From contig NZ_CALMZC010000038.1 of the NCBI RefSeq assembly GCF_937873765.1, positions 62,001 to 126,000 of the forward strand: DNA of 64,000 nt. Direction: 5' to 3'. Of this stretch, positions 11,451 to 38,069 are shown piece by piece. Source of the DNA: an uncultured Thiothrix sp. (GTDB lineage Bacteria > Pseudomonadota > Gammaproteobacteria > Thiotrichales > Thiotrichaceae). Below the pieces are notes generated by a model. That model saw nothing but the letters and a program-made list of their open reading frames with translations, was not told the DNA's origin and searched no databases. Position numbers and translations under genes: made by a program. Positions within the stretch are counted from its first letter, which is position 1. Every line of letters starts with the position of its first letter.

Positions 11451-12914
11451 ATGATCGATTTCCTGATTTTCTTGTTACTAATGCCAGTAACAGGTGCGCT
11501 ATTTATTCTATTTTTGCCTAATCACCGGCAAACATGGATTCGCCCAGCCGCTTTGAGCACTGCTGTCCTGACTTTAATCTATACCCTCTATTTAGCTACG
11601 CAGATGGATTTCAGCAATCCAGCCGTGCAATTAGTCGCTGAATATCAATGGAATGAGCGCTTAGGCACTTATTTTTCCTTTGGCGTGGACGGTTTATCTT
11701 ATCCTTTAGTGGCTTTAACCAATCTATTAATGCTGGTAGCGATTGCTGTTTCTACGCAAATTAATGAGCGGATTAAAGGCTATTATATTTTACTCTTGTT
11801 GTTAGAAGCAGCGACTATGGGGGTATTTCTAACTCAAGGCTGGGCGCTATTTTATGTGTTTTGGGAGTTAGTCTTAATCCCACTCTTTTTCCTGATTGAC
11901 CGTTGGGGTGGAGCAAATCGCCAACGAGCAGCGTTAAATTTCGTGCTATACACCATGGGTGGCTCAGTGTTTATGCTGTTAGGCTTATTAATGCTCTTTG
12001 ATGCCAACCCTGAGCACCGCTTTTTATTCGCCTCGATTAAGCGTGCTTCTGAAGTTATTCCGCCTGAAACCCAAACGGTGATTTTTCTAGGTTTAATGAT
12101 TGGCTTAGGCGTAAAAATGCCACTATTTCCTTTGCACGGTTGGTTGCCTTTGGCGCATGTAGAAGCCCCTAGCCCCGTTAGTATTTTGCTCTCAGGTATT
12201 CTATTAAAAATGGGTGCTTACGGGCTGATTCGTAGTGCTGAGATGTTGCCTGCTGCGGCGCTTAATCTGCAAGACTTGATGATGGCACTCGGTATGATCG
12301 GCATGTTGTATGGGGGCTTATTAGCGTGGCGGCAGAGTGATTTGAAGAAAATGATCGCGTATTCCTCAGTCAGCCATATGGGAGTAGTGATGATTGGGAT
12401 TGCTGCCTTGAATGAAAATGGTTTAATGGGCGCTGCTTATCAAATGGTGGCACATGGTTTAGTAGCGGGCGCTTTGTTTATGCTGATTGGACTATTGTAT
12501 GAGCGCACCCATACCCGCGATATTAATGATTATGGCTCGCTGTTAAGAGCTACGCCCCGCTTTGCAGTCTTAATTATTTTAGCCTTAGTCGGTGGAGTCG
12601 GTTTGCCGGGAACGGCGGGTTTCATTGGTGAATTACATGCTTTAATTGGTGGTTTTGAGCGTTGGGGGTGGTTAGTGGCTGCTTTATCTTTGGGGATGTT
12701 AATCACTGCAACCTATAGCCTGCGCACGGTTAAACAGCTTTACACCGGACCGATAAATCTAAGTATGCAACAAGTGGAGGATCTAAAGCCTTTAGAGCTA
12801 GTTGCAGGGGGTGTATTAGTGACGGGCACGCTCTTGCTAGGTTTCTATCCTTTACCCTTATTAGATGTACTCCTCAGCAGTTTACAAGCGATTGCTGCAC
12901 CTTTTGGAGCTTAA
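11451..12914 (+). CDS. Complex I subunit M-like proton antiporter (first of the array)
   Basis: 487-residue polytopic membrane protein of the NuoM/NdhD family. It keeps all four charged residues that line the proton path: Glu139 (FWELVLIP, TM5), Lys222 (GVKMPLFPLHGW, TM7), Lys253 (LLKMGAYG, TM8) and Glu394 (FIGELHAL, TM12). It also has the AHGLVAGALF and LYERTHTRDI signatures of ordinary NuoM. I expect it to translocate protons, or another cation. It starts an array of four such genes spanning 6 kb, with the next gene three bases away. No NuoA-K or peripheral-arm gene accompanies it, so what drives or uses it is unknown. Confidence 0.85.
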   Translation: MIDFLIFLLLMPVTGALFILFLPNHRQTWIRPAALSTAVLTLIYTLYLATQMDFSNPAVQLVAEYQWNERLGTYFSFGVDGLSYPLVALTNLLMLVAIAVSTQINERIKGYYILLLLLEAATMGVFLTQGWALFYVFWELVLIPLFFLIDRWGGANRQRAALNFVLYTMGGSVFMLLGLLMLFDANPEHRFLFASIKRASEVIPPETQTVIFLGLMIGLGVKMPLFPLHGWLPLAHVEAPSPVSILLSGILLKMGAYGLIRSAEMLPAAALNLQDLMMALGMIGMLYGGLLAWRQSDLKKMIAYSSVSHMGVVMIGIAALNENGLMGAAYQMVAHGLVAGALFMLIGLLYERTHTRDINDYGSLLRATPRFAVLIILALVGGVGLPGTAGFIGELHALIGGFERWGWLVAALSLGMLITATYSLRTVKQLYTGPINLSMQQVEDLKPLELVAGGVLVTGTLLLGFYPLPLLDVLLSSLQAIAAPFGA

Positions 12915-12917
12915 GCG

Positions 12918-14480
12918 ATGAGTGAATGGCTGCATCAATTGCTATTATTGACTCCTCTCCTTCCATTACTGGCTAGCTTCTGGATTGGCTTAGGCGTAGT
13001 TTTTAAGTGGAATCGCGGCGAGCAAGGGGAGCGTGAAACGGCCTTGATTGCGGTTGGCTCGGCCTTAATAGCCTTTCTAGTTTTGCTGGGTTTAACCGTT
13101 TATAGCACTTTGTATGGTTCATTAGGCACTATTGTCATCTCGCGTTGGCTGGAGAGTGGCAATATTCAAGCGAGTGTCAGTTTATTATTCGATGGTTTGA
13201 GTCTAAGTTTAGCAACCGTTTTCAGTTTCATTATTTTGCTGACTTTACGTTTTTCAGTGAATTATTTGCATCGTGAAGCTAGTTTCCAACGCTTTTTCCT
13301 GATTATGTGTTTGTTTCATACGGCCATGCTGTTGATTGTGCTGGGTGGCAATTTAATGTTGGCTTTTGTTGGCTGGGAGTTGGCAGGGATTAGCTCCTAT
13401 CTTTTAATCAGTTATTCATGGCAACGTGAATACGCTAGTACCAATGCTACACGTGCCTTTGTCACTAATCGGGTGGGTGATGCAGGCTTTTTGCTCGCTA
13501 TTTTCATGGCACTGATTTACTGGGGCAACTGTGATTGGGAAGCGCTCTTAGTTCAAAGCCAAGCCGAACCGGGCTTAGTCGCCAATATGATTGTACTAGG
13601 TCTGATTCTGGCGGCTTGTATTAAATCGGCGCAGTTTCCATTTTCAGCTTGGATTAGTCATGCCTTAGAGGGACCAACCCCTTCTAGTGGAGTGTTTTAT
13701 GGCTCGGTGATGGTGCATGCGGGTATCTATCTCTTATTACGCTTGTCACCCATGCTTGAGCAAATGCCAATTATTGCTTGGCTCTTAGCTGCAATGGGGT
13801 TAGCAACGATTGTGTATGCTTGGTTTTTGGCGCAAATGCAGACGGATATTAAAAGCTCGCTGATTTTCTCAACGCTAATGCAAGTGGGTATGATGGTCGT
13901 GGCGATAGCTGCAGGCTGGACGACTTTAGCTTTAATTCACCTAATCCTGCATGCTGTCTGGCGGATTTATCAGTTTCTCTGGTCACCTTCTTTTCTACAA
14001 CAAACTTCTAGTCCCGCACCTGCAGCACCCGCTTGGTTCCAGAAGAATTTATGGCTACATAATGCATGTCTCCAACGTTTTTGGTTGGATCGTTTAGCAG
14101 ATACTTTTTTAGTAAAACCGACGCGCTTATTAGCGCACGAAGCTCAATTGTTTGATCAGCAAGTGATAGATCGCTTAACCGGTACACCTTCTCATACCAA
14201 TGTTTTGTCGACTTTAGTACAAATGCAGGCTCTCCAAACAGGTAGTTTACAATTGAATAATCAAGTCGGTGTTGGCTCAGGTGTTTTTGGCAAGCTCTTA
14301 CAACGCATTGCTGAAATTATGGAGTGGTTTGAAGAGCGCTTAGTCCTAAAAAGCAGTAGTGATGGCTTAGCTGGTTTAGCGACCGTATTAGGCGAGCGTG
14401 CTGAGTTGGTAGAAACCTATTTACGGCAACCTCGTTATATGCTGGTTTTGATCGCTGCTACCTTGGTAGTGGTCTTATGA
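12918..14480 (+). CDS. NuoL-like antiporter subunit lacking the second transport half
   Basis: 520 residues against about 610 for NuoL. The first ~350 align to NuoL: Glu154 in FVGWELAGIS, Lys236 in CIKSAQFPF, EGPTPSSG at the TM7-8 loop and TDIKSSLIFST. The TM11 motif normally written HAFFKALLFL reads HAVWRIYQFL, so the conserved Lys is Arg346. After that no membrane span is visible until about residue 505. TM12-15, with the distal Lys site, are absent, and a ~150-residue region containing RLADTFLVKPTRLLAHEAQ follows, resembling the lateral-helix region at the NuoL C-terminus, then one last span. The reading frame is intact. It lies three bases after the first M gene and ten before the next. 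Confidence 0.8.
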   Translation: MSEWLHQLLLLTPLLPLLASFWIGLGVVFKWNRGEQGERETALIAVGSALIAFLVLLGLTVYSTLYGSLGTIVISRWLESGNIQASVSLLFDGLSLSLATVFSFIILLTLRFSVNYLHREASFQRFFLIMCLFHTAMLLIVLGGNLMLAFVGWELAGISSYLLISYSWQREYASTNATRAFVTNRVGDAGFLLAIFMALIYWGNCDWEALLVQSQAEPGLVANMIVLGLILAACIKSAQFPFSAWISHALEGPTPSSGVFYGSVMVHAGIYLLLRLSPMLEQMPIIAWLLAAMGLATIVYAWFLAQMQTDIKSSLIFSTLMQVGMMVVAIAAGWTTLALIHLILHAVWRIYQFLWSPSFLQQTSSPAPAAPAWFQKNLWLHNACLQRFWLDRLADTFLVKPTRLLAHEAQLFDQQVIDRLTGTPSHTNVLSTLVQMQALQTGSLQLNNQVGVGSGVFGKLLQRIAEIMEWFEERLVLKSSSDGLAGLATVLGERAELVETYLRQPRYMLVLIAATLVVVL

Positions 14481-14490
14481 GGACGCGCTA

Positions 14491-16020
14491 GTGCAATATC
14501 AAATAATTAGTGCTGCTTGGCCTCTGTTAAGTCTATTGCAGCTAGTGCCTTTAGTGGCTAGCTTACTGTTGCTTCGGATTCGTCAACGCAATGCGATGAT
14601 CTTAGCGCTATCGGCCTCTTTGCTAGAAATCGCCTTAGCACTCGTTCTGTATCTAAGTTTTGACAATACCCAGCCTGCAGGGGTTATGCAGTTTGCTGAA
14701 CAGTTACCGATCTGGGCGGCTTTTCAGTATCATGCTGCTGTCGATGGTATGAGCGTGCTATTTATCCTGCTTACCACTTTACTCGGCTTTTTATGTGTAG
14801 TGTTTATTCTGTTCCGGCGCTTACATGGTAGCTCAGTTCTCGCCGTGATGATGTTGGTGCAAGCCACTCTAGTCAGCCAACTCGTCACCGTGGATTTGCT
14901 GTGGTTTAACCTTGTTTCCATGCTGGAAATGCTGTTGATTGCTTATTTGACTAAGCGTTGGCCTGCATCTGATGATGTGATGCCCGCTCTAGTGCGCTTT
15001 CTGCAATTTATGGCAGTGGGCTTGATCTTATTATTGGCAGGTAGTTTATTGCTTGCTTGGAATTACGCCACGCTCAAGGGAATATGGTCGTTTGATTTAG
15101 CTGAGCTTGTGACGGTGACTGTACCGGAAGAAATGGAAGGCATTTTGTTCTTCCTACTCTTTTATGGGCTAGCAGTGCGCATTCCCCTCTTTCCTTTTCA
15201 TGGTTGGCTGCCAGATTTTCTGCGCTTTGGAAATGTGGCAATTGCACCAATTTATCTTTTAGGCTTAAAGCTGGGTGTTTATGGCTTGTTGCGTTTTGTG
15301 TTTCCACTCATGCCCAATGCTGTCTGGCAATGGCATTATGTGGCAGTGGCCTTTGCGATGGTGGGGGTATTTTATGCCGCTTTACTCGCTCTAAAACAGC
15401 AGAATTTGCGCAGTCTCTTAGGTTTTGCCGTTGTCAGCCATACCAGTATTCTCACCATTGGCCTGTTTAGCCTTGATCCCCTAGCTTTACAAGGCAGTGT
15501 CCTATTAGCGGTGAATTTTGGTTTAGCCATCTCTGGATTGTTACTAATGACGGGCTTGGTTTGGCAACGTACCCGCACCACTAATTTGCATCGTTTAGGC
15601 GGTATGTTTGATTATATTCCTTTAGTCGGTATTGCTTTCTTGATTGCAGGTTTAGCGATTGTCGGGATGCCCGGCACACCCGGTTTCAATGCGGTGCATT
15701 TTGTTTTAGAAGGGGCGATTAAAACGTTTGGTGCACCTGTCACCATTGGTGCTGCAATTGGCAACTTAATCGCAGCCGGTTTTTTATTACGCGCTTTCCA
15801 ACGGGCCTTTTTAACCAAACCGAGTGGTAACACTAGTCATTGGAATACGGAGCCTTCACAGCTCACTGAAAAAATATTAGCAGGAACAGTAATTTGTGTG
15901 ATTGTGGTGGTCGGTTTTTATGATGTGCCGTGGCTGGCTCTTATTGCTGAGCCTGTCGGTGGAGTAGGGGAGCTGTTCAATGAATTACGCGCACTGTCTG
16001 GGATTGTGAATCATGACTGA
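14491..16020 (+). CDS. Degenerate NuoM-like subunit of the array
   Basis: 509-residue polytopic protein of the NuoM/NuoN family, started by GTG behind a GAGGA site. The fold markers RIPLFPFHGWLP and GLKLGVYGLLR are clear, but key charges differ. The TM5 Glu is Asn140 (an unaligned Glu sits at 146), the TM7 Lys is Arg230, and the TM12 Glu is Val402 (GTPGFNAVHF); only the TM8 Lys, Lys260, remains. The AHG motif of NuoM is replaced by VNFG. It may be a structural spacer, or its transport path may be altered. Its stop overlaps the start of the next gene by eight bases, so the two are translationally coupled. Confidence 0.8.
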   Translation: MQYQIISAAWPLLSLLQLVPLVASLLLLRIRQRNAMILALSASLLEIALALVLYLSFDNTQPAGVMQFAEQLPIWAAFQYHAAVDGMSVLFILLTTLLGFLCVVFILFRRLHGSSVLAVMMLVQATLVSQLVTVDLLWFNLVSMLEMLLIAYLTKRWPASDDVMPALVRFLQFMAVGLILLLAGSLLLAWNYATLKGIWSFDLAELVTVTVPEEMEGILFFLLFYGLAVRIPLFPFHGWLPDFLRFGNVAIAPIYLLGLKLGVYGLLRFVFPLMPNAVWQWHYVAVAFAMVGVFYAALLALKQQNLRSLLGFAVVSHTSILTIGLFSLDPLALQGSVLLAVNFGLAISGLLLMTGLVWQRTRTTNLHRLGGMFDYIPLVGIAFLIAGLAIVGMPGTPGFNAVHFVLEGAIKTFGAPVTIGAAIGNLIAAGFLLRAFQRAFLTKPSGNTSHWNTEPSQLTEKILAGTVICVIVVVGFYDVPWLALIAEPVGGVGELFNELRALSGIVNHD

Positions 16021-17509
16021 AGCCATTCCAATGACTAGTGCTGCATTTCCTTGGTTAAGCCTACTAATTTTACTCCTGCCGTTAGGTGGGTTGATTGCGG
16101 CAAGTTTAGCACCGCGAGAAGCCCGTTGGGCTGCTTTGGCAACTTCGGTAGGAGCTTTACTGATTTCCTTAGTTATTGTAAGTGGATTTAATCCAGCACA
16201 ATCAGGCTTTCAATTTGTCGAACGTAGCCTGTGGATTCCGTCCTTAGATATTAATTATTTGCTAGGTGTGGATGGTTTATCAGTACTGTTCTTACCCTTT
16301 ACTGCTCTGCTATTTATTGGAGTCATTCTAGCCTCGTGGAATGCGATTCAAAACCTACCGCGTTTATTTTTTGCGCTACTTCTTCTCTTAGAAATGGCGA
16401 TGATGGGCATTTTCTCCGCTTTAGATACAATTCTGTTCTTCCTCTTTTGGGAGTTGAGTGTTTTACCGCTTTATTTTCTGATTAGTCTTTGGGGGATTGG
16501 GCCAAATCGGCGTTATGCAGGCGTAAAATATACTTTGTTTATGTTGAGTAGCGGCGTACCGTTATTGTTGGGATTTGTGGTCTTAGCTTTGCAGCATCCT
16601 AATGGCATTAGTTTTGATTACACTCGTCTCCTGCATATTGCGCATACACATGATTATCAAACGGCTATTTTCATTCTGTTAGCCTTGGCGTTTGCAGTGA
16701 AGTTACCGCTATTTCCTTTGCATTCATGGCTGCCAGTCGTCGCTCAAGAAGCACCTACACAAGTAGTGGCTTTATTGGTGGGCTTAAAAGTAGGGGTGTA
16801 TGGAATGATTCGCTTCGCTTTTCCGTTAGCACCGAGTGCTGCTCAGGATTTTCAATATATTTTGATCGGCTTGGGCATGCTAGGTGTGCTGTATGGGGCC
16901 TTGGCCGCTTTAGGGCAAACTAATTTACGCCGTATGTTAGCTTTCTCCAGCTTAAGTCATGTCGCGATGGTCTTTCTCGGTGTAGTGAGTATGACGCAGC
17001 AAGGTTTGCAAGGGGCAATTTTTCAATTATTGAATTTCACGGTGATTGCAGGTGGCTTATTTATCCTGATTGGATTCATCTATCAGCGGGTAGGCTCTAG
17101 CGAAATTCCAAGTCTGGGTGGGATTGCGAAGAGTATGCCTTTATTAACAAGTTTCTTTTTTATCTTAGGTGCGGCCAATTTGGGTATTCCGGGCACGAGT
17201 GGATTTCCGGCTGAATTTTTGCTGACTGTGGGTGTCTTAGAGACTTATCTAGGTGCAGGTTTGCTAGCATTGTTTAGCATTATTTTAGCGGCAGCTTATT
17301 TTTTGTCCGCTTATCGCCAAGCTTTCTTAGGCAAAACGCGGCATGCATCGATTAGTGAATCACCCGATCTCAAGCCGCGTGAGTTAGCTATTATGCTGTT
17401 GTTCACGACACTTGTGCTGCTGTTTGGCTTTTATCCACAAGGGTTACTAGACTTCATTTCTATCGGTAGCGTCGATTGGCTCGAACGCATGACCTTATTA
17501 GTCGAATAA
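16013..17509 (+). CDS. Complex I subunit M-like antiporter (last of the array)
   Basis: 498-residue NuoM-like membrane protein. All four key charges are kept: Glu147 (FWELSVLP), Lys230 (AVKLPLFPLHSW), Lys259 (GLKVGVYG) and Glu401 (FPAEFLL). Where ordinary NuoM has AHG and YERxHTRD, it reads LNFTVIAGG and YQRVGSSE, changes it shares with the preceding subunit but not with the first, so these two are probably sister duplicates. The start codon lies inside the previous gene. The array ends here; the TerC gene begins 108 bases later behind a possible promoter. Confidence 0.85.
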   Translation: MTEAIPMTSAAFPWLSLLILLLPLGGLIAASLAPREARWAALATSVGALLISLVIVSGFNPAQSGFQFVERSLWIPSLDINYLLGVDGLSVLFLPFTALLFIGVILASWNAIQNLPRLFFALLLLLEMAMMGIFSALDTILFFLFWELSVLPLYFLISLWGIGPNRRYAGVKYTLFMLSSGVPLLLGFVVLALQHPNGISFDYTRLLHIAHTHDYQTAIFILLALAFAVKLPLFPLHSWLPVVAQEAPTQVVALLVGLKVGVYGMIRFAFPLAPSAAQDFQYILIGLGMLGVLYGALAALGQTNLRRMLAFSSLSHVAMVFLGVVSMTQQGLQGAIFQLLNFTVIAGGLFILIGFIYQRVGSSEIPSLGGIAKSMPLLTSFFFILGAANLGIPGTSGFPAEFLLTVGVLETYLGAGLLALFSIILAAAYFLSAYRQAFLGKTRHASISESPDLKPRELAIMLLFTTLVLLFGFYPQGLLDFISIGSVDWLERMTLLVE

Positions 17510-17617: not shown

Positions 17618-18388
17618 ATGGAACTGCTGCTAGACATCAATGTATGGAGCGCCTTCTTAACATTAACCATATTGGAAATAGTGTTAGGTATCGACAATAT
17701 AATTTTTTTAACCCTGATGGTGAATCGCTTGCCGCCAGAACAGCGTGCTTTAGCGCGTAAGCTAGGCTTGTTCGGGGCGATGTTCTCACGGATTTTGTTA
17801 CTGCTCTCAATTGCTTGGGTTGCCAAGTTGGTTGAGCCTTTATTTGTGATTATGGGACATGCGGTTTCAGGTCGAGATTTAGTTTTATTATTTGGTGGTT
17901 TATTCCTGATTTATAAAGCAGTTACGGAGATTCATGGTAGCCTAGAAGGTGGGGTCGAAGAGGGCCAAGGGGCTATTAAAAAAGGTGCTTCAACCTTCAT
18001 CGGTGTAATTGCGCAAATCGCGGTGATTGATATTGTGTTCTCACTTGATTCAGTGATTACTGCTATCGGTTTAGCTGATCAAGTAGTTGTGATGGTGGCA
18101 GCGATTGTTGTCGCGATTTTAGTCATGATGTTTGCAGCAGGCCCGATTGGGGATTTCGTTGAAGCTCATCCGACAGTCAAAATGTTGGCGCTTACTTTCC
18201 TTGTCTTAGTAGGGGTAGTACTCGTGGCTGAAGGTACTGGTCATGAAGTACCAAAAGGTTACCTCTACTTCGCGATGGCCTTCTCGTTTGGGGTGGAAAT
18301 GTTGAACATGAAAATGCGCAAAAACTCTAAAAAAGTCGTGGATTTGCATGACACTATGCCGCAAAAAGAACAAGGCTTAGAAAAATAA
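17618..18388 (+). CDS. TerC-family integral membrane protein (YgdQ-like)
   Basis: 256 residues with about seven membrane spans. The TerC-family acidic motifs are LGIDNIIFLTL in TM1 and VFSLDSVITAIG in the middle. TerC relatives are linked to manganese and other metal efflux or to loading of exported metalloproteins, but this short branch is poorly characterised. A second, longer TerC paralog (Alx type) lies at 57770. The next gene begins one base after its stop, so this is the first gene of a probable three-gene operon ending in a DegS-like protease. Confidence 0.85.
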   Translation: MELLLDINVWSAFLTLTILEIVLGIDNIIFLTLMVNRLPPEQRALARKLGLFGAMFSRILLLLSIAWVAKLVEPLFVIMGHAVSGRDLVLLFGGLFLIYKAVTEIHGSLEGGVEEGQGAIKKGASTFIGVIAQIAVIDIVFSLDSVITAIGLADQVVVMVAAIVVAILVMMFAAGPIGDFVEAHPTVKMLALTFLVLVGVVLVAEGTGHEVPKGYLYFAMAFSFGVEMLNMKMRKNSKKVVDLHDTMPQKEQGLEK

Positions 18389-22335: not shown

Positions 22336-23403
22336 TTAATTAAGACTTAAGCCTTGTTTACAGTTTGGATCAGTGGGCGATGGTGTAGCATCTGGATACA
22401 AGGTACGAATACCTGCACTGCGACGTGCAAAGACAGTAGTGAATTTTTGACCCTCATCTTGAACTGGCAATAAACAAGCTATGGTTTTGTCGCGGCTTTC
22501 AGTCGGATTGTCGGCAAAAGCAAGTGTGCCTAATTTCAATAAGTCTTCAGCACTGAGGGTTAAGCCATAGCCTTTGATAGATGAGCGCGCAGTATAATTG
22601 CCAAAGTGCATAATTACCCCCATGGAGTACAACACATTCGGGACGACTTCATTCTGGCGTAAGTTATCCATGCGGCAAGCCTCCCCCGTTTGCTGCAGTT
22701 GTAAATAACGCCCTACATAATGCATACCACCAATCGGGCCATTCGCCTCAGGCTCACCACAAAAAATATGCTCAAAAGCATGCACCGCAAACCACGCCTC
22801 AGTTAAATCGTTTAAATAATCTTCGGGGTTAGTTTTAGCGGGGCGATTCGCAAAGACCTTGTCTTGTGTAAAAGTTTTAATCTGTGCCAAGACCTCAGGA
22901 TGATTACGTAGCATTTGCTTAAATGCTTCGGCACTGACTTTAGTGCCTACAGAGCCACAGACTGCATTCACCGCTTGACCAAAAGCATCAATGTTCGGTG
23001 CAGGCGGCGTGATATCTGCTAGGCCATTTTTGAGCCTGACGGGATTATGGCTATTATCAAAGAAAGGTAGGCAGTTAGTAGTGGCTGTGGTGGCAGGATG
23101 CCACTCAGTCGCCGTAGGCGCGAGTGCATTGCTGTAATGACCACAGCTTAATTCGACCCACTTCTTCTCCGCACCAATTTGTAGATAAACATGTGTGGGA
23201 TTAGGTTCACGATTCGTGCCTAAAGCAGGAAAAGCTTGGCCTGCGGCTAACGGACTCACATTACTATGCTTTTTAATAGAGGTCACAGCATCGCAAGCGT
23301 GATCAAGCATAAATTCATTAGCTTGGGAAAAATAGACTTGAGCCATAGCGCTCGTGGCTAATAATAAAGCCCCTAGCCCTAAACTGATTTGAAGTAATTT
23401 CAA
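22336..23403 (-). CDS. Exported EndoU-like nuclease-domain protein
   Basis: 355 residues with a clear signal peptide (cleavage after SAMA, residue 21). The C-terminal ~160 residues resemble bacterial EndoU endoribonucleases: His212 in AFEHIFCGE, His228 in GPIGGMHYVGRY and the strand-rich end KFTTVFARRSAGIRTLYPD, the usual BECR-fold closing. EndoU enzymes use two His and a Lys or Tyr to cleave RNA at U. The N-terminal ~190 residues with Cys pairs are unrecognised. EndoU domains are frequent as toxin tips, but here the protein is free-standing, Sec-exported and has no obvious immunity gene beside it. Family call from motifs only. Confidence 0.6.
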   Translation of the reverse strand: MKLLQISLGLGALLLATSAMAQVYFSQANEFMLDHACDAVTSIKKHSNVSPLAAGQAFPALGTNREPNPTHVYLQIGAEKKWVELSCGHYSNALAPTATEWHPATTATTNCLPFFDNSHNPVRLKNGLADITPPAPNIDAFGQAVNAVCGSVGTKVSAEAFKQMLRNHPEVLAQIKTFTQDKVFANRPAKTNPEDYLNDLTEAWFAVHAFEHIFCGEPEANGPIGGMHYVGRYLQLQQTGEACRMDNLRQNEVVPNVLYSMGVIMHFGNYTARSSIKGYGLTLSAEDLLKLGTLAFADNPTESRDKTIACLLPVQDEGQKFTTVFARRSAGIRTLYPDATPSPTDPNCKQGLSLN

Positions 23404-23507: not shown

Positions 23508-25544
23508 CTAAACATCCTTCATCAAGCGCAAAGCCTCATAAATGGCTGCATGTGTATTGCGGGCTGCGACTGCATCACCGATCCGATAAAGTAAGAATTG
23601 TCCTTCAGGATGCTTGAGCAAGGTTTGGGCTTGGCCTGCTATCAGTTGTTCATAATCCACTGCACCTAAATTTTTCGAGCGCGGTTTTAGCTCAAAGTAG
23701 AGTTCATCTAAGGGTTGCGTACCATGATTCACAATAATTTGGTCGTAATTTTTACGCTGTTGCCAATTTCCATAATCACTGCCTATAAGCGCAGTTAAAC
23801 CATTTACCGTTTTCTCCACCGCTAATAAACGATAGGTAACCGTAAAAGTGACTTGGTGCTGCTGTAAATTACGCAAATAAGGCACTAAATTCATCCCCAT
23901 CACTTCAGGTGCAAAGCTTCGGTCAGGTGTCATAATTTCAAGCTCTGCCCCCGTTGCAGCAATGAATTCCGCAGCTTGTAAAGCAGCATGATCGCCCGCA
24001 TCATCGTAAAGTAGAACTTTTTTAGCAGGTTTGGTACTACCCGCTAAAATATCCCAAGTCGAGACTACGTACTCATTACCACTAGCTAAAATCTCGGCAT
24101 TTGCTAAACCGCCAGTGGCAATCACCACCACATCTGGTTCAAGTGCAAGCACATCCTCTGCTTCTACCCAACAGTTAAAGCGAAATTGCACACCGTATTG
24201 CTCACATTGCGCTAAGCGCCACTCCACAATGCTGATCATTTCGCGGCGGTGTGGACTGCGGGCGGTTAAGCGGATTTGTCCGCCCGCTTCGCTATCGGCT
24301 TCTAACACAATCACTTCATGTCCGCGCTCACCCGCCACCCGCGCTGCCTCTAAGCCAGCAGGCCCAGCACCGACAATGACTACTCGTTTTTTAACAGAAG
24401 CAGCTTGAAGTTGATGTGGCATAGTCAACTCACGCCCCGAAGCGGCATTGTGAATGCAATAGGCTTCACCGCCTTGATAAATGCGATCTAAGCAATAAGT
24501 CGCACCAACACAAGGACGAATCGTCTGTTCTTGACCTGCTATTAGCCTGCGTACAATATGCGGATCAGCTAAATGCGCCCGTGTCATGCCGACCATGTCT
24601 AATTTGCCACTCGCAATCGCATGGCGGGCGGTGGCTAAATCTGGAATTTTCCCTGCATGGAAAATTGGGAAGCGGGTCAGTTCGCGTAACTCACCGGCAA
24701 AATCCAAATGTGGTGAATTGCGCATGCCTTGTACTGGAATCACGTCGGTCAAGGCAGCATCAGTATCAATATGCCCGCGAATAATATTCAGGAAGTCAAT
24801 CAAACCGGAATCACGTAAACGGCAAGCGATTTCAATACCTTCGGCTTTGGTTAAGCCACCTTCTAGGACTTCATCCGCGACATTGCGTACGCCAATAATA
24901 AAATCTTTTCCCACCCGCTCACGCATTGCCTGTAGCACTTCCATGCTAAAACGCAGGCGGTTTTCTAAAGAGCCGCCATAAGCATTATCTAAAGTATTGG
25001 TATAAGGTGACCAGAATTGATCCAGCAAATGCCCATAAGCCTCCAATTCAATCCCATCCATGCCCGCAGCTTGCATGCGTTCGGCAGCGTCTGCATAGTT
25101 TTGGATAATCCGTTCAATGTCCCAATCTTCGATCACTTTTGGGAAGGCGCGATGTGCAGGCTCGCGCCGAGCGGATGAACTTACTACCGGTAGCCAATCG
25201 CCGCGTGACCAATGCGTGCGCCGCCCTAAATGTGTGAGTTGAATCATCACTGCTGCGCCCTGTTCATGGCAAGCATCAACTAAGTCGCGCAAGTGGCTAA
25301 CCACTTCATCTTTGTAAGCCAAGATATTATTAAACGCAGGTGCGCTATCTTTCGAGACAATTGCCGAGCCTGCAGTCATAGTGAGGGCAATACCCGCTTT
25401 AGCGCGTTCCACATGATAGGCGCGATAGCGGGCGGTGGGCATGCCATTTTCTGGATAAGCTGGCTCATGCGCGGTAATCATAATCCGATTGCGCAAGGTT
25501 AAATGCTTGAGTTGAAAGGGTTGTAAGAGTGGATCATGAGTCAT
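23508..25544 (-). CDS. FMN/Fe-S/FAD demethylase of the DgcA / N-methylproline demethylase type
   Basis: 678 residues, two parts: an old-yellow-enzyme TIM barrel (about 1-340) binding FMN, and a C-terminal pyridine-nucleotide-disulfide-like Rossmann unit with VIVGAGPAG at 389-397. Between them lie Cys345, Cys351 and Cys363 in CVGATYCLDR and YCIHNAASG; trimethylamine dehydrogenase itself has four Cys spaced differently, so this fits the DgcA branch that demethylates dimethylglycine or N-methylproline. It starts 18 bases after the methyltransferase gene and is surely co-transcribed. DgcB, the ferredoxin-like partner of DgcA in pseudomonads, is not adjacent. The substrate is probably an N-methylated amine. 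Confidence 0.8.
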   Translation of the reverse strand: MTHDPLLQPFQLKHLTLRNRIMITAHEPAYPENGMPTARYRAYHVERAKAGIALTMTAGSAIVSKDSAPAFNNILAYKDEVVSHLRDLVDACHEQGAAVMIQLTHLGRRTHWSRGDWLPVVSSSARREPAHRAFPKVIEDWDIERIIQNYADAAERMQAAGMDGIELEAYGHLLDQFWSPYTNTLDNAYGGSLENRLRFSMEVLQAMRERVGKDFIIGVRNVADEVLEGGLTKAEGIEIACRLRDSGLIDFLNIIRGHIDTDAALTDVIPVQGMRNSPHLDFAGELRELTRFPIFHAGKIPDLATARHAIASGKLDMVGMTRAHLADPHIVRRLIAGQEQTIRPCVGATYCLDRIYQGGEAYCIHNAASGRELTMPHQLQAASVKKRVVIVGAGPAGLEAARVAGERGHEVIVLEADSEAGGQIRLTARSPHRREMISIVEWRLAQCEQYGVQFRFNCWVEAEDVLALEPDVVVIATGGLANAEILASGNEYVVSTWDILAGSTKPAKKVLLYDDAGDHAALQAAEFIAATGAELEIMTPDRSFAPEVMGMNLVPYLRNLQQHQVTFTVTYRLLAVEKTVNGLTALIGSDYGNWQQRKNYDQIIVNHGTQPLDELYFELKPRSKNLGAVDYEQLIAGQAQTLLKHPEGQFLLYRIGDAVAARNTHAAIYEALRLMKDV

Positions 25545-25562
25545 TACAGGCGTCTTCCTTGC

Positions 25563-27104
25563 TTAATACCACATATCAGGTTTGGCGGATTTTTTTTCGC
25601 GGATAAAAGCTTGTAGGGCTTCATCAATGCTGGGGTCTAGAGGTGGAGCCTCATACTCGGCTAATTGCTGCTTCCAAATGGCATTGGCGCGTTGCTCAGC
25701 CGTTTTGCGGCCATCAAGCTCCCATTGCTCAAACGAGCCACTATCCGCCGTAGTCGATTCATAAAATACATTGCTATAGTTCGCGAGCGTATGTGCGGTT
25801 CCTAAGAAATGTTCATTGTGGCTATGGCGTTGGCGATACGAGTCTAAGGCAAAGGCATTCTCATCTAAGGCCAAGCCCTCTAACATACGCGCCATCATGC
25901 CCAGTCGATTGGTGTCGAGAATAAATTTCTCATAACCCATCGTCAAACCACCTTCTAACCAACCGGCTGCATGCAAAATCCAATTCGCACCGGACATTAA
26001 AGCAGGTGTCAATGCATCGGCGCTTTCTTGACCTGCTTGGAAATCACTGACTTTGGAAGAAGTAAATGCGCCCCCACAGCGCAAAGGCACACCTGCGCGT
26101 CGTGCCAACTGGCCAATTGCAAAATAGGCCAACCTCGCTTCTGGTTGCCCAAAAGTGGGTGAGCCATTCCGCAAAGACATCGTGGTGAGGAAATTGCCAT
26201 AAATCATCGGCGCACCAGGGCGTACTAATTGGGCTAAAGCAATCCCTACCAATGATTCAGCATGGGCTTGCGCAATCGCACCTGCTGGTGTAACCGGCCC
26301 CATCGCACCCCCTAACACAAAGGGACAAACAATAATACCTTGGCCTGCGGCAGCATAAGTGCGAATGACTCGTGTGACATCACCATCAAACAGTAGCGGT
26401 GAGGTCGCATTGATATTGCCCATTACCACACAGTGTTGATCGACAAAGTCTGTGCCAAACAAAATGCGTGATAATTCAATCGAATCTTCCGCACGTTCTG
26501 GGCTAGTAATCGAACCCAAATAAGCTTTATCCGAATAGCGTATATGCGCATAGACCATATCCAAATGCCGCTTATTCACTGGGATGTCTACCGGCTCGCA
26601 GATCGTACCGCCTGAATGATGGATATGTGGGCAGGTGTAAGCAAGCTTAATAAAATTCTGGAAGTCTTCTAAACTGCCATAGCGCCGCCCGCGCTCTAAA
26701 TCAGAGACAAACGGTGAGCCATACGCCGGTACAAACACTACATTATCGCCACCTACAGCGATTGAGCGAGCGGGATTGCGGGCATGATGAATAAATTCGC
26801 GCGGTGTGGTTTTGATGAGTTGCTTAATTAATCCCGCTGGAAAACGCACAATCTCGCCTTGTGCTTCTGCACCCGCCTCCACAAACAGACGAATACTTTC
26901 CTCATCGCCACGAAACTGCATGCCGAATTCTTGCAAGATTAATTCAGCGTGATGCTCTATCGCCTCTACCCCATCTACGCTCAACAGTTCATAGAGCGGA
27001 ATATTACGCTTTAAATAAGGTGGAAAAGCTGTAGTCTCAGTACGGTGTGTACTGCGAGCGCGGCGGCGTGAGGAACGATCCGTAGAGGCTTGAATTGTAT
27101 TCAT
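25563..27104 (-). CDS. Trimethylamine methyltransferase (MttB) family protein, without pyrrolysine
   Basis: 513 residues, full length for the MttB family (PF06253). The frame contains no in-frame amber codon, so no pyrrolysine is encoded; such members include the glycine betaine methyltransferase MtgB. Recognised segments include TPREFIHHARNPARS, MGNINATSPLLFDGD, APMIYGNFLTTMSLRNGSP and LRCGGAFTSSKVSDFQAGQESA. The family transfers a methyl group from a methylamine to a corrinoid protein. No corrinoid protein or activase gene is in the window. It lies upstream of, and with, the DgcA-type demethylase gene, divergent from a LysR regulator. Confidence 0.88.
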   Translation of the reverse strand: MNTIQASTDRSSRRRARSTHRTETTAFPPYLKRNIPLYELLSVDGVEAIEHHAELILQEFGMQFRGDEESIRLFVEAGAEAQGEIVRFPAGLIKQLIKTTPREFIHHARNPARSIAVGGDNVVFVPAYGSPFVSDLERGRRYGSLEDFQNFIKLAYTCPHIHHSGGTICEPVDIPVNKRHLDMVYAHIRYSDKAYLGSITSPERAEDSIELSRILFGTDFVDQHCVVMGNINATSPLLFDGDVTRVIRTYAAAGQGIIVCPFVLGGAMGPVTPAGAIAQAHAESLVGIALAQLVRPGAPMIYGNFLTTMSLRNGSPTFGQPEARLAYFAIGQLARRAGVPLRCGGAFTSSKVSDFQAGQESADALTPALMSGANWILHAAGWLEGGLTMGYEKFILDTNRLGMMARMLEGLALDENAFALDSYRQRHSHNEHFLGTAHTLANYSNVFYESTTADSGSFEQWELDGRKTAEQRANAIWKQQLAEYEAPPLDPSIDEALQAFIREKKSAKPDMWY

Positions 27105-33856: not shown

Positions 33857-36800
33857 TTATTTAAAGGCAGGAACTGCTCCGCTAATAATAAAGTTAGCGT
33901 TAAATGTGGTATTTTCAGGATGTAATAACACATTACCTAACATCAAATTAGAATCATTTTTAGGGCCTGCATATAAGGTCACACCATCAAGGTTGATGTC
34001 AGTGGCGAAATAGCCAGGCATTAAATAGGCAGTATTCACACCTGAGTTGCCGGGGGCAATTAATAAAGCGCCCAGCATTACGTTCAAATCACTACCCGGG
34101 CCATTAGTAATAATCGTATTACTGTTATTCACATCACCTGCCCACAACATAGCGAGAGTGCTACTGGTTAATTGTGCATTTTTGCCATAAGTGGCGGTTT
34201 TAGGTGTGGTGAAATCAACCAAGGTCGGCACAGCAGACAAGGCAATCGGTGCTGCTGTCATCACACCCATGTGGTTACGATGGTCAATAGCAACGTAATA
34301 ATTACCCGGCTTCACATCATGAATCAAAATTTCTTTCGATCCAGTTTTACTGTTTACTAGGTTACCGTTGCGTTGCAACACGCTAGCATGTGTCATTATC
34401 CGCTTGGCTGGGTTTATAGGATCACGTAATTCAATTAAGATCCAATCCACGACTGCCTCATTGCCAGCTACTGTGTAGACAGCATCAGTCATGATCTCTT
34501 TCCCCATATGTCCAAAAGGCGAAACTGCATTCGGCGAGTTGGTATAACCGAATGAATCACTGAGCGAGCCGTAAGGTTGTTGTTTGGGCAAATAGCCGAG
34601 ATCGCGTAAATCATCCACCATCAGGCCAGTATTTGAATTATAAGCGCCTTGTAATAGAGCACGGATACTCAAACGAATATAAGGGTTAATCACCGGATCA
34701 AGGTAATCCAGAATTTCATCTAAATCAGCATCCGCTGCATCTATCGGGTTGCCATCCTTATTTGGATCTGGCTGCTCATCACGCGTAAGTAGGCCATCAT
34801 TATCATCATCAGCATCCAGATAGTTGTGCAACAGATCTTTATCCGAATCTAGCCCATCATCAGGATTACCATTACGGTTAGGGTCAGGCTGCTCGTACTG
34901 GGTCAAAATACTATCATTGTCGTCATCTTTATCGAGGTAGTCTGGAGCCCCATCTTTATCGGTATCATCATCAGTGGGTGTATTTCCATTGTAGTTTTCA
35001 TACCAAGTGTTGATCAAATCGCCATCGTCGTCCTTATCAAGATAATCAGCTAAGCTATCCTTATCGGTATCATCATCTAAGGGTGTACCCCCGTTATAGT
35101 TTTCGAGCTTGGTAGGTACACCATCATTATCATCGTCGGTATCGAGATAATCAAAGCTCCCATCTTTGTCCGAATCAACTGTAGGGGTATTTTTACCGGC
35201 ATTCTCCGTAAGTGTAGGAATACTATCATTGTCATCATCAGGATCAATCAGATTGGGTATTCCATCACCATCCTGATCTAAAGGTGTAGTTACAGAAGAA
35301 CCCAGTTCCAATTTATCAGGCAAACCATCTTGATCACTATCAATACTATCTGGATTAGAGCCTAGGATAGCTTCTTGACCATTGGTTAAGCCATCCCCAT
35401 CATCATCCTTGTCTGGGCTATGCTGGTCATACTTATCCAAATAATCAGGGACTTTATCCCCATCAGTGTCCTTAGCATCTTCAGGTTGATGGTTGCCATT
35501 GGGATCATTATTCTCCGTAGCAGAGGGTTTGCCGTCCCCATCATCATCGGCATCCAAATAATCCGCGATGCCATCTTTATCGGTGTCATCATCAATTGGC
35601 AGACCAGCATTATAGTTTTCGTATTTGGTGTAAAGACCATCATTATCATCATCAGCATCTAGATAGTTTGGATTCCCATCGGTGTCCGTATCTTTACTGC
35701 CTTCATCCTTGGTCAGGATATTGTCGCCATCATCATCCAGATCTAGGTAATTAGGAAGACCATCCGCATCGACATCTTTAGTACCTTCATCTTTGGTAGC
35801 GATACCATCATTATCATCATCAGTATCGCGATAGTCATACACTCCATCTTGATCGGTGTCTTTGATGCCTTCCGTTTGGGTCGGAATATTATCTCCATCA
35901 TCATCCGGATCTAGATAATCGGCGATCCTATCTTTATCGCTATCATCATCTTTAGGTGTACCGCCATTATAGTTTTCAGAATCAGTATTGAGTCCGTCCC
36001 CATCATCATCTTTGTCTAGATAATCAGGAGTTCCATCATTATCGGTATCTGTGGTACCTTCTTCTTTGCTAGGAATTTCATCGCCATCATCATCTGTATC
36101 GAGAATATCGAGAATCCCATCATTGTCAGTATCGCGAGGCTTAAGAGGATCACTGCCTACTTCAGTTTTGTCATCAATGCCATCACCATCGCTATCAGCA
36201 TTGTCTAGGTTACTACCCAAACTAGTTTCGACATTATCGTTTAAACCATCATTATCACGATCCTCCGCTACATCGGTCACTTTGATGGCTAAAGCTTGTT
36301 GGTCACAGGCTTGGTAACTATCACACAGTTTGATGATGACATTATAAATATTGTCCAAACCTTGATCTTGTGGCTTCTCGAAATCAGGTGAGAGTTTAAA
36401 ACGTAACAGCCCTGCCTTATCGATGCTGAAGAGGGCGTCATCTACACCACCTCCTAAACTCCATACTAGGCCTTTGCCCTCTGTTTCGCCTTCGGCATCA
36501 GTAGCTGCATAATCGACAATTGCAGCACTATTATTTTCAACAATGGTGATCGAGGCCGTCGCTGTACTCTCCGCATTACTAATAGTAGGCGCGGTGTTAC
36601 TGATCGTATTTAAAACTAAAGTTGCCGTATCATCTTCATTGGGCTTAGCCAATCGGTTATACGGAGTAGAGTCCGGATCTTCATTAAACGAGTAAGTAAT
36701 TTCAGATGGAATCTGGTAGCTGATATCTGTACCTACTTGGACGCGAATCGTGAAGGTGCGTTTACTGTTAGCTAAGACTTTACCAACTGACCACTGACCG

Positions 36801-37828
36801 GTCTGAGCGTTAAACAAACCAGCGGAGGTATCACTTAGGTAACTCATTCCGCTGGGTAATTCGATATTCGCAGTGACTAAGCGTGAGGCTGTCGCAGATT
36901 TATTGCTTAGAGTGTAAGTGAGATCGACGACACCATTCCGGTCTGGTTTCAAGGGACTGGCCGTAGCGGTTAACTCTAGATCAACTTCAGTCGAAGAGGT
37001 ACTAGTTAACCATTTAAAAAAAGCTGCCGAATCATAAGCCTGATCGCCCGTATCGGCTAAAGCTAACTTGATATGATAACGTTGCTTGGCTTGTAAGCCG
37101 CCTAAGGATGCAGTGATTGGAGTAGTAAAACCATCCAGTTGAGTGCCCGTTTTACCACTACCGTTGCCGTTATCGACGAAATAAGCTGAGTTGGTTAATT
37201 GGCAAGCAGTACCATCTTTAAAGCTACCGGCTACCCCAGCATTCACATTATTAACGGCAATCGCTTGTTTAGTCTGCGGTAAAAAAGCTGCATTTTGAGT
37301 ACCGATTAAGCCAGGGCCAGAAACAAATAAGCCAAACACGTCATTAAACTTACTACAGACATATTCAGGATATTCATCGGAGCCAAACACCAAAAGGAAG
37401 TTAATCCGATCTCCTTCGGGAAGAATATCGAATTCAATAATGGCTGGATCATTAATGGCCGTAGCTGCAAGCTTAGTCAGGTCAGGGTCAGCATATTTGA
37501 TCGTGGTGTTAAAAGTATATTTCTGATTGTTATTGGGACCAAGGATACTGCTTAGGTTGCCAGTACTCATAAACAAGCCTTCATTGATGCCTAAAACAGG
37601 GTCAGAGCCTGAAGGATCAATACCGCCTGTAAAAATACCATATTGGTTTTTAATACCTTTAGTAATTTGCAGATTCTCAATCGCCAAGCCGGGGCCATTA
37701 AGAATCAGACTCATATCACTCAAAGTCGGTGCTGCATTTAAGGTCAGTGCCGCCGAAACTGGTAAGCTACTAAGCAATAAACTGCTTAAAAGCAAAGGCC
37801 GTACACGCCCGAGAGTACGCTGAGACAT
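33857..37828 (-). CDS. Giant secreted protein with choice-of-anchor, TSP3-like calcium repeats and dockerin-like end
   Basis: 1323 residues from the ATG at 37828, preceded by AGGACTTGCTT; a TTG two codons earlier is less likely. Order: signal peptide (about 1-28, cleavage near SAA), choice-of-anchor L-like domain (about 35-275, with FLLVFGSDEYPEYVCSKFND), a beta-sandwich like DUF11 (about 280-400), a cadherin-like stretch (to ~520), about 25 Asp-rich thrombospondin-type-3-like repeats (525-1045) of the DTDGDG...DYLDxDDDGDG kind, then a C-terminal part ending with two Asp/Asn loops resembling dockerin F-hands (GDVNNSNTI, TDINLDGV). Probably a rigid calcium-dependent surface or released protein, perhaps an adhesin. 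The exporter is not shown; a type II secretion operon lies at 50957. Confidence 0.85.
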   Translation of the reverse strand: MSQRTLGRVRPLLLSSLLLSSLPVSAALTLNAAPTLSDMSLILNGPGLAIENLQITKGIKNQYGIFTGGIDPSGSDPVLGINEGLFMSTGNLSSILGPNNNQKYTFNTTIKYADPDLTKLAATAINDPAIIEFDILPEGDRINFLLVFGSDEYPEYVCSKFNDVFGLFVSGPGLIGTQNAAFLPQTKQAIAVNNVNAGVAGSFKDGTACQLTNSAYFVDNGNGSGKTGTQLDGFTTPITASLGGLQAKQRYHIKLALADTGDQAYDSAAFFKWLTSTSSTEVDLELTATASPLKPDRNGVVDLTYTLSNKSATASRLVTANIELPSGMSYLSDTSAGLFNAQTGQWSVGKVLANSKRTFTIRVQVGTDISYQIPSEITYSFNEDPDSTPYNRLAKPNEDDTATLVLNTISNTAPTISNAESTATASITIVENNSAAIVDYAATDAEGETEGKGLVWSLGGGVDDALFSIDKAGLLRFKLSPDFEKPQDQGLDNIYNVIIKLCDSYQACDQQALAIKVTDVAEDRDNDGLNDNVETSLGSNLDNADSDGDGIDDKTEVGSDPLKPRDTDNDGILDILDTDDDGDEIPSKEEGTTDTDNDGTPDYLDKDDDGDGLNTDSENYNGGTPKDDDSDKDRIADYLDPDDDGDNIPTQTEGIKDTDQDGVYDYRDTDDDNDGIATKDEGTKDVDADGLPNYLDLDDDGDNILTKDEGSKDTDTDGNPNYLDADDDNDGLYTKYENYNAGLPIDDDTDKDGIADYLDADDDGDGKPSATENNDPNGNHQPEDAKDTDGDKVPDYLDKYDQHSPDKDDDGDGLTNGQEAILGSNPDSIDSDQDGLPDKLELGSSVTTPLDQDGDGIPNLIDPDDDNDSIPTLTENAGKNTPTVDSDKDGSFDYLDTDDDNDGVPTKLENYNGGTPLDDDTDKDSLADYLDKDDDGDLINTWYENYNGNTPTDDDTDKDGAPDYLDKDDDNDSILTQYEQPDPNRNGNPDDGLDSDKDLLHNYLDADDDNDGLLTRDEQPDPNKDGNPIDAADADLDEILDYLDPVINPYIRLSIRALLQGAYNSNTGLMVDDLRDLGYLPKQQPYGSLSDSFGYTNSPNAVSPFGHMGKEIMTDAVYTVAGNEAVVDWILIELRDPINPAKRIMTHASVLQRNGNLVNSKTGSKEILIHDVKPGNYYVAIDHRNHMGVMTAAPIALSAVPTLVDFTTPKTATYGKNAQLTSSTLAMLWAGDVNNSNTIITNGPGSDLNVMLGALLIAPGNSGVNTAYLMPGYFATDINLDGVTLYAGPKNDSNLMLGNVLLHPENTTFNANFIISGAVPAFK
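34690..36260 (-). repeat. Asp-rich calcium-binding repeat tract
   Basis: About 1.6 kb of the giant gene is made of diverged tandem units whose coding strand is dominated by GAT and GAC codons; on the plus strand it appears as recurring ATCATCATC runs. Unit length is mainly 30-45 codons, with sub-units containing DYLDxDDDxD. The repeats are diverged and in frame, so this is old protein-repeat structure rather than recent slippage. Confidence 0.9.
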
Positions 37829-38069
37829 AAGCAAGTCCTATTATTTTTATTATCAAGCCCAAATAGATAGATAAATAGCAGCTATACCCTGCGTATACCC
37901 GATGCTAAGAATCCTTTATGACAAGCTTAGACTATAAGATAAATTTATTCATGTCAAATGACCGATTTACGCCGCTAATCTGATTCAACCATTCATCTCT
38001 TCCAGTGCTAAGGCGTGCAAGAGATAATACCGTAAAACCCATATCTATAAAAAAACTTAGGGTGTCTAA

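Follow-up and report, generated by a model that had tools for sequence, protein, structure and literature searches.

The closest described relatives of the locus analysed here are the DAB (or DAC) inorganic-carbon uptake systems, of which DAB2 of Halothiobacillus neapolitanus (DabA2/DabB2) has been solved (PDB 9rd0, PMC13144422). In DAB2, Glu444 of the DabA finger and Lys347 of DabB2 are essential, and Leu658 of DabA is strictly conserved in the 150 homologues compared by the authors, at a position that is Gln or His in ordinary beta-carbonic anhydrases; the same authors tie the loss of NuoL Glu144 to an altered ion pair that optimal coupling requires (PMC13144422). Neighbourhoods combining YbcC (COG3002), a NuoL homologue and NuoM (COG1008) were described as "clade C" in the 2017 COGNAT paper, according to which ybcC always adjoins the nuoL homologue, and which contains no residue analysis or function (PMC5700660). 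The cyanobacterial NDH-1MS/MS' complexes (CupA/B with NdhF3/NdhD3) work in a comparable way, carrying a CO2-hydrating subunit on a NuoL/NuoM-like arm (PMC13144422 and general knowledge); they have redox and connecting subunits, whereas the catalytic subunit of the array described here is DabA.

The window, that is, the whole stretch of 64,000 nucleotides analysed, corresponds to positions 62001-126000 of contig C38 in a Thiothrix genome (G000) of 4.0 Mb that is rated 100% complete. It encodes four consecutive proteins of the NuoM/NuoL family, referred to here as M1, L, M3 and M4 (Table 1). Coordinates and profile matches agree with the earlier note, which had described antiporter-subunit genes in the order M, L, M, M with gaps of 3, 10 and -8 bp (M1/L, L/M3 and M3/M4, respectively). 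The match of L to NuoL (Pfam/NCBIfam) is confined to its first ~360 aa. Upstream lie genes for a YhdH/AcuI-type reductase, an M1-peptidase and ChaN/PDZ proteins, and downstream those for TerC, a phytase-like esterase and an HtrA protease. These are unrelated families, and no complex-I or known-partner gene was found among the flanking genes tested on either side, in keeping with what the note had said of the flanks. Among named records the closest is Thiothrix eikelboomii, with an M3 that is 88% identical. Comparison of the two genomes gives pN/pS values of 0.08-0.16 for the four array genes and dabA (see below), and at the sequence level all five are under purifying selection. The TerC gene is not found at the same place in T. 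eikelboomii, and so TerC is probably outside the system. Elsewhere in the window, the reverse strand carries an MTTB-family methyltransferase gene, an open frame without internal stop beside an FMN/pyridine-nucleotide oxidoreductase, possibly for methylamine or betaine use, as well as genes for a protein that has a bacterial EndoU nuclease domain at its C-terminus and may be a contact-dependent or polymorphic toxin, and for a DUF11-domain protein that is possibly a surface protein.

Table 1. Coordinates of the array genes and of other features mentioned in the text. Positions without a contig or locus name are those of the window.
Feature	Location	Strand	Size	Remarks
M1	11451-12914	+	487 aa	NuoM (Pfam/NCBIfam, E 7e-145); array gene 1
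M1/L junction	12915-12917	+	3 bp	Site of dabA (~3.3 kb) in relatives
L	12918-14480	+	520 aa	DabB-like, NuoL-related (E 6e-75)
M3	14491-16020	+	509 aa	GTG start; divergent NuoM (E 8e-81)
M4	16013-17509	+	498 aa	NuoM (E 4e-137); final array gene
TerC-family membrane protein	17618-18388			Immediately 3' of array
EndoU-domain protein	22336-23403	-	355 aa	
MTTB-family methyltransferase	23508-27104	-		
DUF11-domain protein	33857-37834	-	1325 aa	
Lone dabA	G000:C55:54507-57740		1077 aa	Only DabA in the genome; unrelated neighbours
L-M3 fusion	L181:10799-13936			Family f61
L-M3 fusion	L183:6353-9490			Family f61
L-M3 fusion	L182:5970-9083			Family f61
NACHT-HEAT protein	L051:5719-9738		1339 aa	In the G053 array, flanked by DabA-alpha and L
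Split array	L175:6162-10990; L176:4748-7752 (also L177, L178)			Family f99
Divergent DabA cluster	L193:5701-12964			G404

In relatives, searched with M3, the spacing between M1 and M3 is at least 3 kb larger than in G000, and the intervening gene encodes DabA (PF10070, E down to 1e-242), the DAB subunit that resembles carbonic anhydrases, located between M1 and L. The order M1-DabA-L-M3-M4 recurs in the family and in other gammaproteobacterial families, and the M1-DabA-L arrangement is seen in nearly all relatives examined, across two proteobacterial classes. It is also present at all 19 loci examined from a scan of the phylum, the majority lying outside the class. Array and DabA co-occur: at the level of the order, in raw counts that ignore kinship, DabA is encoded in 35/35 genomes with the array and is missing from 27 of the 28 without it, the sole DabA among the latter being of the canonical two-gene type. 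In a sample of 370 genomes of the class, again ignoring kinship, M3 was called in 25 (one of these calls, G109, may be an M4), and array-type DabA occurs in the same 25 plus one more (G340), where M1, DabA and L run up to the end of the contig. About 70 other genomes of this sample have weaker, mostly partial DabA matches, and those sampled are canonical DAB. The earlier note's statement that no partner gene is visible is correct for the window and incorrect for the genome, which has a dabA on contig C55; its picture of an orphan array does not extend to the relatives, since DabA adjoins the array nearly everywhere, a finding that the note had itself named as refuting it. The exceptions, in which M1 and L are directly adjacent and DabA is absent between them, are G000, T. 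eikelboomii (G040) and a genome of another genus (G019), and no remnant of dabA was found in the 3-bp M1/L junction of G000. The missing adjacent dabA is the unusual trait of the G000/T. eikelboomii pair and one other genome.

Like DAB2, the system combines a PF10070 DabA with a NuoL-derived, DabB-like protein of remodelled C-terminus. The DabA of G000 keeps the zinc ligands (C351, H524 and C539 in DabA2 numbering) and the D353-R355 dyad, and both sets are present in every array-type DabA that covers those positions. Its model has a predicted long helical hairpin resembling the membrane finger. A fold search with this model gave no significant match, and beta-carbonic anhydrases as weak matches only, from a library that returned no DAB2 entries. 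Unlike DabA2 and all canonical DabAs compared (~27), which have Leu at position 658, every array-type DabA has His. The surrounding motif R-x-E-[W/L]-G-[L/H] aligns gap-free, with Leu656 in the array type against Trp in DAB2. At the finger tip, in a column that is less securely aligned, the Glu444 of canonical DabAs is replaced in the array type by a hydrophobic residue, Pro, a small residue or sometimes Asp. One locus (L168, genome G085) has a mixed DabA signature, with Leu658 and Trp656 and Asp at 444. In another genome, a divergent His658-type DabA is found in one cluster with an L of the Glu/Arg signature (see below), a possible antiporter subunit and a SulP-family transporter (Table 1).

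The L protein aligns to NuoL and DabB2 over approximately residues 40-365 only, and then diverges. By sequence it resembles DabB in its NuoL-like TM1-11 and altered C-terminal helices, the modelled C-terminus being too uncertain for helix placement; a fold search with the L model, which is poor after approximately residue 400, returned complex-I type subunits only, again from a library returning no DAB2 entries. L is more NuoL-like in sequence than DabB2 is. Glu occupies the equivalent of NuoL Glu144 (E154 in L) in 38/38 array proteins but in 0/24 canonical DabBs, where the residue varies (Ile151 in DabB2). The equivalent of NuoL Lys342 (R349 in L, Lys347 in DabB2) is Arg in 38/38 array proteins versus Lys in 24/24 canonical DabBs. 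The retained Glu would fit packing of L against NuoM-like neighbours. The array type departs from the DAB2 subtype at all four marks (Glu444, Leu658, DabB Lys347 and the lost NuoL Glu), and because Glu444 is absent and Lys347 is replaced by Arg, the DAB2 proton path is not transferable unchanged, and coupling has to differ in detail. In three genomes of the gammaproteobacterial family f61, L and M3 are fused in one ORF of ~1045 aa (Table 1), which suggests contact between the two.

A further difference from DAB2 is the presence of three additional NuoM-like subunits. Of the NuoM key residues tested, M1 retains all five in 32/32 orthologues, and M4 keeps the key Glu/Lys set in nearly all of its own; in G000 both have NuoM E144, K234, K265 and E407. 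In M3, K234 is replaced by Arg, E144 and E407 are lost and K265 is kept, a pattern found in 35/35 orthologues. In a quick tree M1 forms one clade and M3 another, the latter grouping with M4. These fixed patterns support the asymmetric roles that the earlier note had proposed for the four subunits, and M3 is probably a non-pumping connector. The note's description of two intact subunits (M1 and M4), one truncated (L) and one degenerate (M3) is apt for the sequences as they stand, but the shortened L and the divergent M3 are constant in all orthologues. Genuine truncation of L was rejected on the stable length of its orthologues, ~505-545 aa with fusions and start-site differences set aside.

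Given that DabA separates M1 from L in nearly all relatives and that array and DabA co-occur, we consider it likely that the four gene products are the membrane components of an enlarged inorganic-carbon uptake complex of the DAB type, with DabA supplied in trans. The stand-alone ion-driven uptake device suggested in the earlier note came near to this, and its other suggestion, an accessory arm of a complex encoded elsewhere, applies only in so far as it is DabA that is encoded elsewhere. M1, the DabB-like L, M3 and M4 would form the membrane part, and the zinc-binding catalytic DabA would come, in this relative of a sulfur oxidiser, from the lone dabA on C55. By analogy with DAB2, M1, M4 and perhaps L would conduct ions, most likely protons, along their gradient, and this downhill flow would drive DabA to hydrate CO2 to bicarbonate, a one-way reaction that would in turn feed RuBisCO. 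M1 and M4 may add ion routes, giving a higher driving force per CO2, with M3 as a structural or connecting module.

An alternative is that DabA and the array form a cation-coupled bicarbonate transporter, by Na+/HCO3- symport as has been proposed for the MpsAB homologue (PMC13144422) or with another ion, and not a proton-driven CO2 hydrase. The alteration of the DAB2 proton-path residues Glu444 and Lys347 in the array type is consistent with this, but the CO2-hydration active-site residues of DabA are all kept, with the beta-carbonic anhydrase-like His658 in addition, as are the NuoM proton-pathway residues of M1 and M4, and we regard such a transporter as unlikely. The reverse direction, in which an exergonic DabA reaction would let the membrane subunits pump ions out, was put forward for YbcC/NuoL operons before DAB was characterised (PMC5700660). 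Having several antiporter-like modules would make sense for an ion pump, and His658 makes the active site closer to that of an ordinary, reversible carbonic anhydrase; however, the characterised DAB2 accumulates DIC in an uncoupler-sensitive manner (PMC13144422), and in one genome (G047) the array directly adjoins cbbL and a LysR gene, so that reversal appears very improbable.

The trans location of dabA is another point on which G000 differs from DAB2, and this dabA is also an exception to the rule that the gene is always beside nuoL (PMC5700660). No PF00361 gene was found on C55, and no dabB adjoins the lone dabA there. Within G000 the DabB-like type is represented by the array L alone; no second DabB that could serve the lone DabA was found in the genome, which means that this DabA either pairs with the array or is partnerless. 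In T. eikelboomii dabA is at an apparently matching site, the genes downstream being of similar size. The DabA tree at the family level has two classes, alpha and beta (beta support 100/100). Alpha-class DabA is always within the array, and the beta class is found within it in genus g8 and outside it in G000, T. eikelboomii, G019, G022 and G016, the last having a beta dabA that is adjacent to the array and divergent. The beta class is found only in genomes having the array. The L tree follows species and not DabA class, suggesting that the array has lost alpha and relies on beta in trans. This DabA would pair with the array L; co-adapted columns between beta DabA and L were rejected as support for such pairing, as there is only one, N382, and this is within chance (61/500 null draws). 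The array is also split in family f99, where M1-DabA (G350) or DabA alone (G416) is carried by a different contig from M3-M4, with no L found beside either part. In G053, a NACHT-HEAT protein is encoded inside the array (Table 1); its close relative G047 is without it.

The loss of dabA from the array in G000, T. eikelboomii and G019 only could be taken to mean that the operon is a decaying remnant. This is highly doubtful, as the four genes are open in both Thiothrix species, with pN/pS of 0.08-0.13 at near-saturated synonymous distance, values on which we rejected decay, and as each of the three genomes keeps a beta dabA in trans, the G000 and T. eikelboomii copies occupying similar sites.

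Ten PF00361 proteins are encoded in G000, six in two complete nuo operons on C14 and C15, which both include an L, an M and an N, and four in the array. Nitrospira-type complex I has a duplicated NuoM, and so shares with the array the presence of more than one NuoM-like pump, but there it lies inside a complete nuo operon, whereas no nuo genes (NuoA-K redox or connecting subunits) were found among the array neighbours tested. An accessory or replacement arm of this kind for either complex-I enzyme of G000, suggested by the homology of all four array proteins to NuoL/NuoM, was rejected as very unlikely: the nuo operons already supply L, M and N, L has neither the TM11-13 region of NuoL nor its long C-terminal part bearing the lateral helix, L and M1 are only ~31-35% and ~33-36% identical to the genome's own NuoL/NuoM versus ~50-90% among array orthologues, array and nuo proteins form separate clades, and the strict co-occurrence of the array is with DabA. 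As for Mrp, the array proteins score far under the curated MrpA/MrpD cut-offs and no small Mrp subunits were found between or among the four genes.

G000 encodes RuBisCO. Among near-complete genomes of the order it is encoded in 28/31 with the array and 11/16 without (Fisher p=0.10), a difference that is suggestive only and statistically too weak to be used as proof of function; no RuBisCO match was found in the remaining three near-complete array genomes.

More tentatively than for the uptake complex itself, we propose that the array type may be a distinct class of energy-coupled carbonic anhydrase, having the His of beta-carbonic anhydrases, no finger Glu, a four-subunit stack with a NuoL-type ion pair and more than one ion per CO2, and in which, in this lineage, DabA would be supplied in trans and alpha and beta would be exchangeable. 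Like the COGNAT clade C, it has dabA upstream of a nuoL homologue with NuoM genes near, and the members of clade C may or may not be exactly of the M1-DabA-L-M3-M4 type. The COGNAT paper of 2017 is the only mention of NuoM-containing DABs found in a search of mostly open-access literature, and neither the residue signature nor a trans-encoded dabA turned up in any paper within the same scope. NuoM-containing DabA neighbourhoods have thus been known since 2017, and the signature and the trans-encoded DabA appear to be new.

One implication is that a complex-I annotation of an orphan NuoL/NuoM array can conceal part of a CO2-uptake system with a distant dabA. The array-type DAB is also a candidate for a stronger CO2 pump in carbon-fixation engineering. 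For the one-way hydration of CO2 by DAB, a branch with His658, without the finger Glu and with extra ion-translocating subunits would be a natural comparison, and as this branch is widespread, the comparison bears on what determines directionality and on the stoichiometry of ions to CO2.
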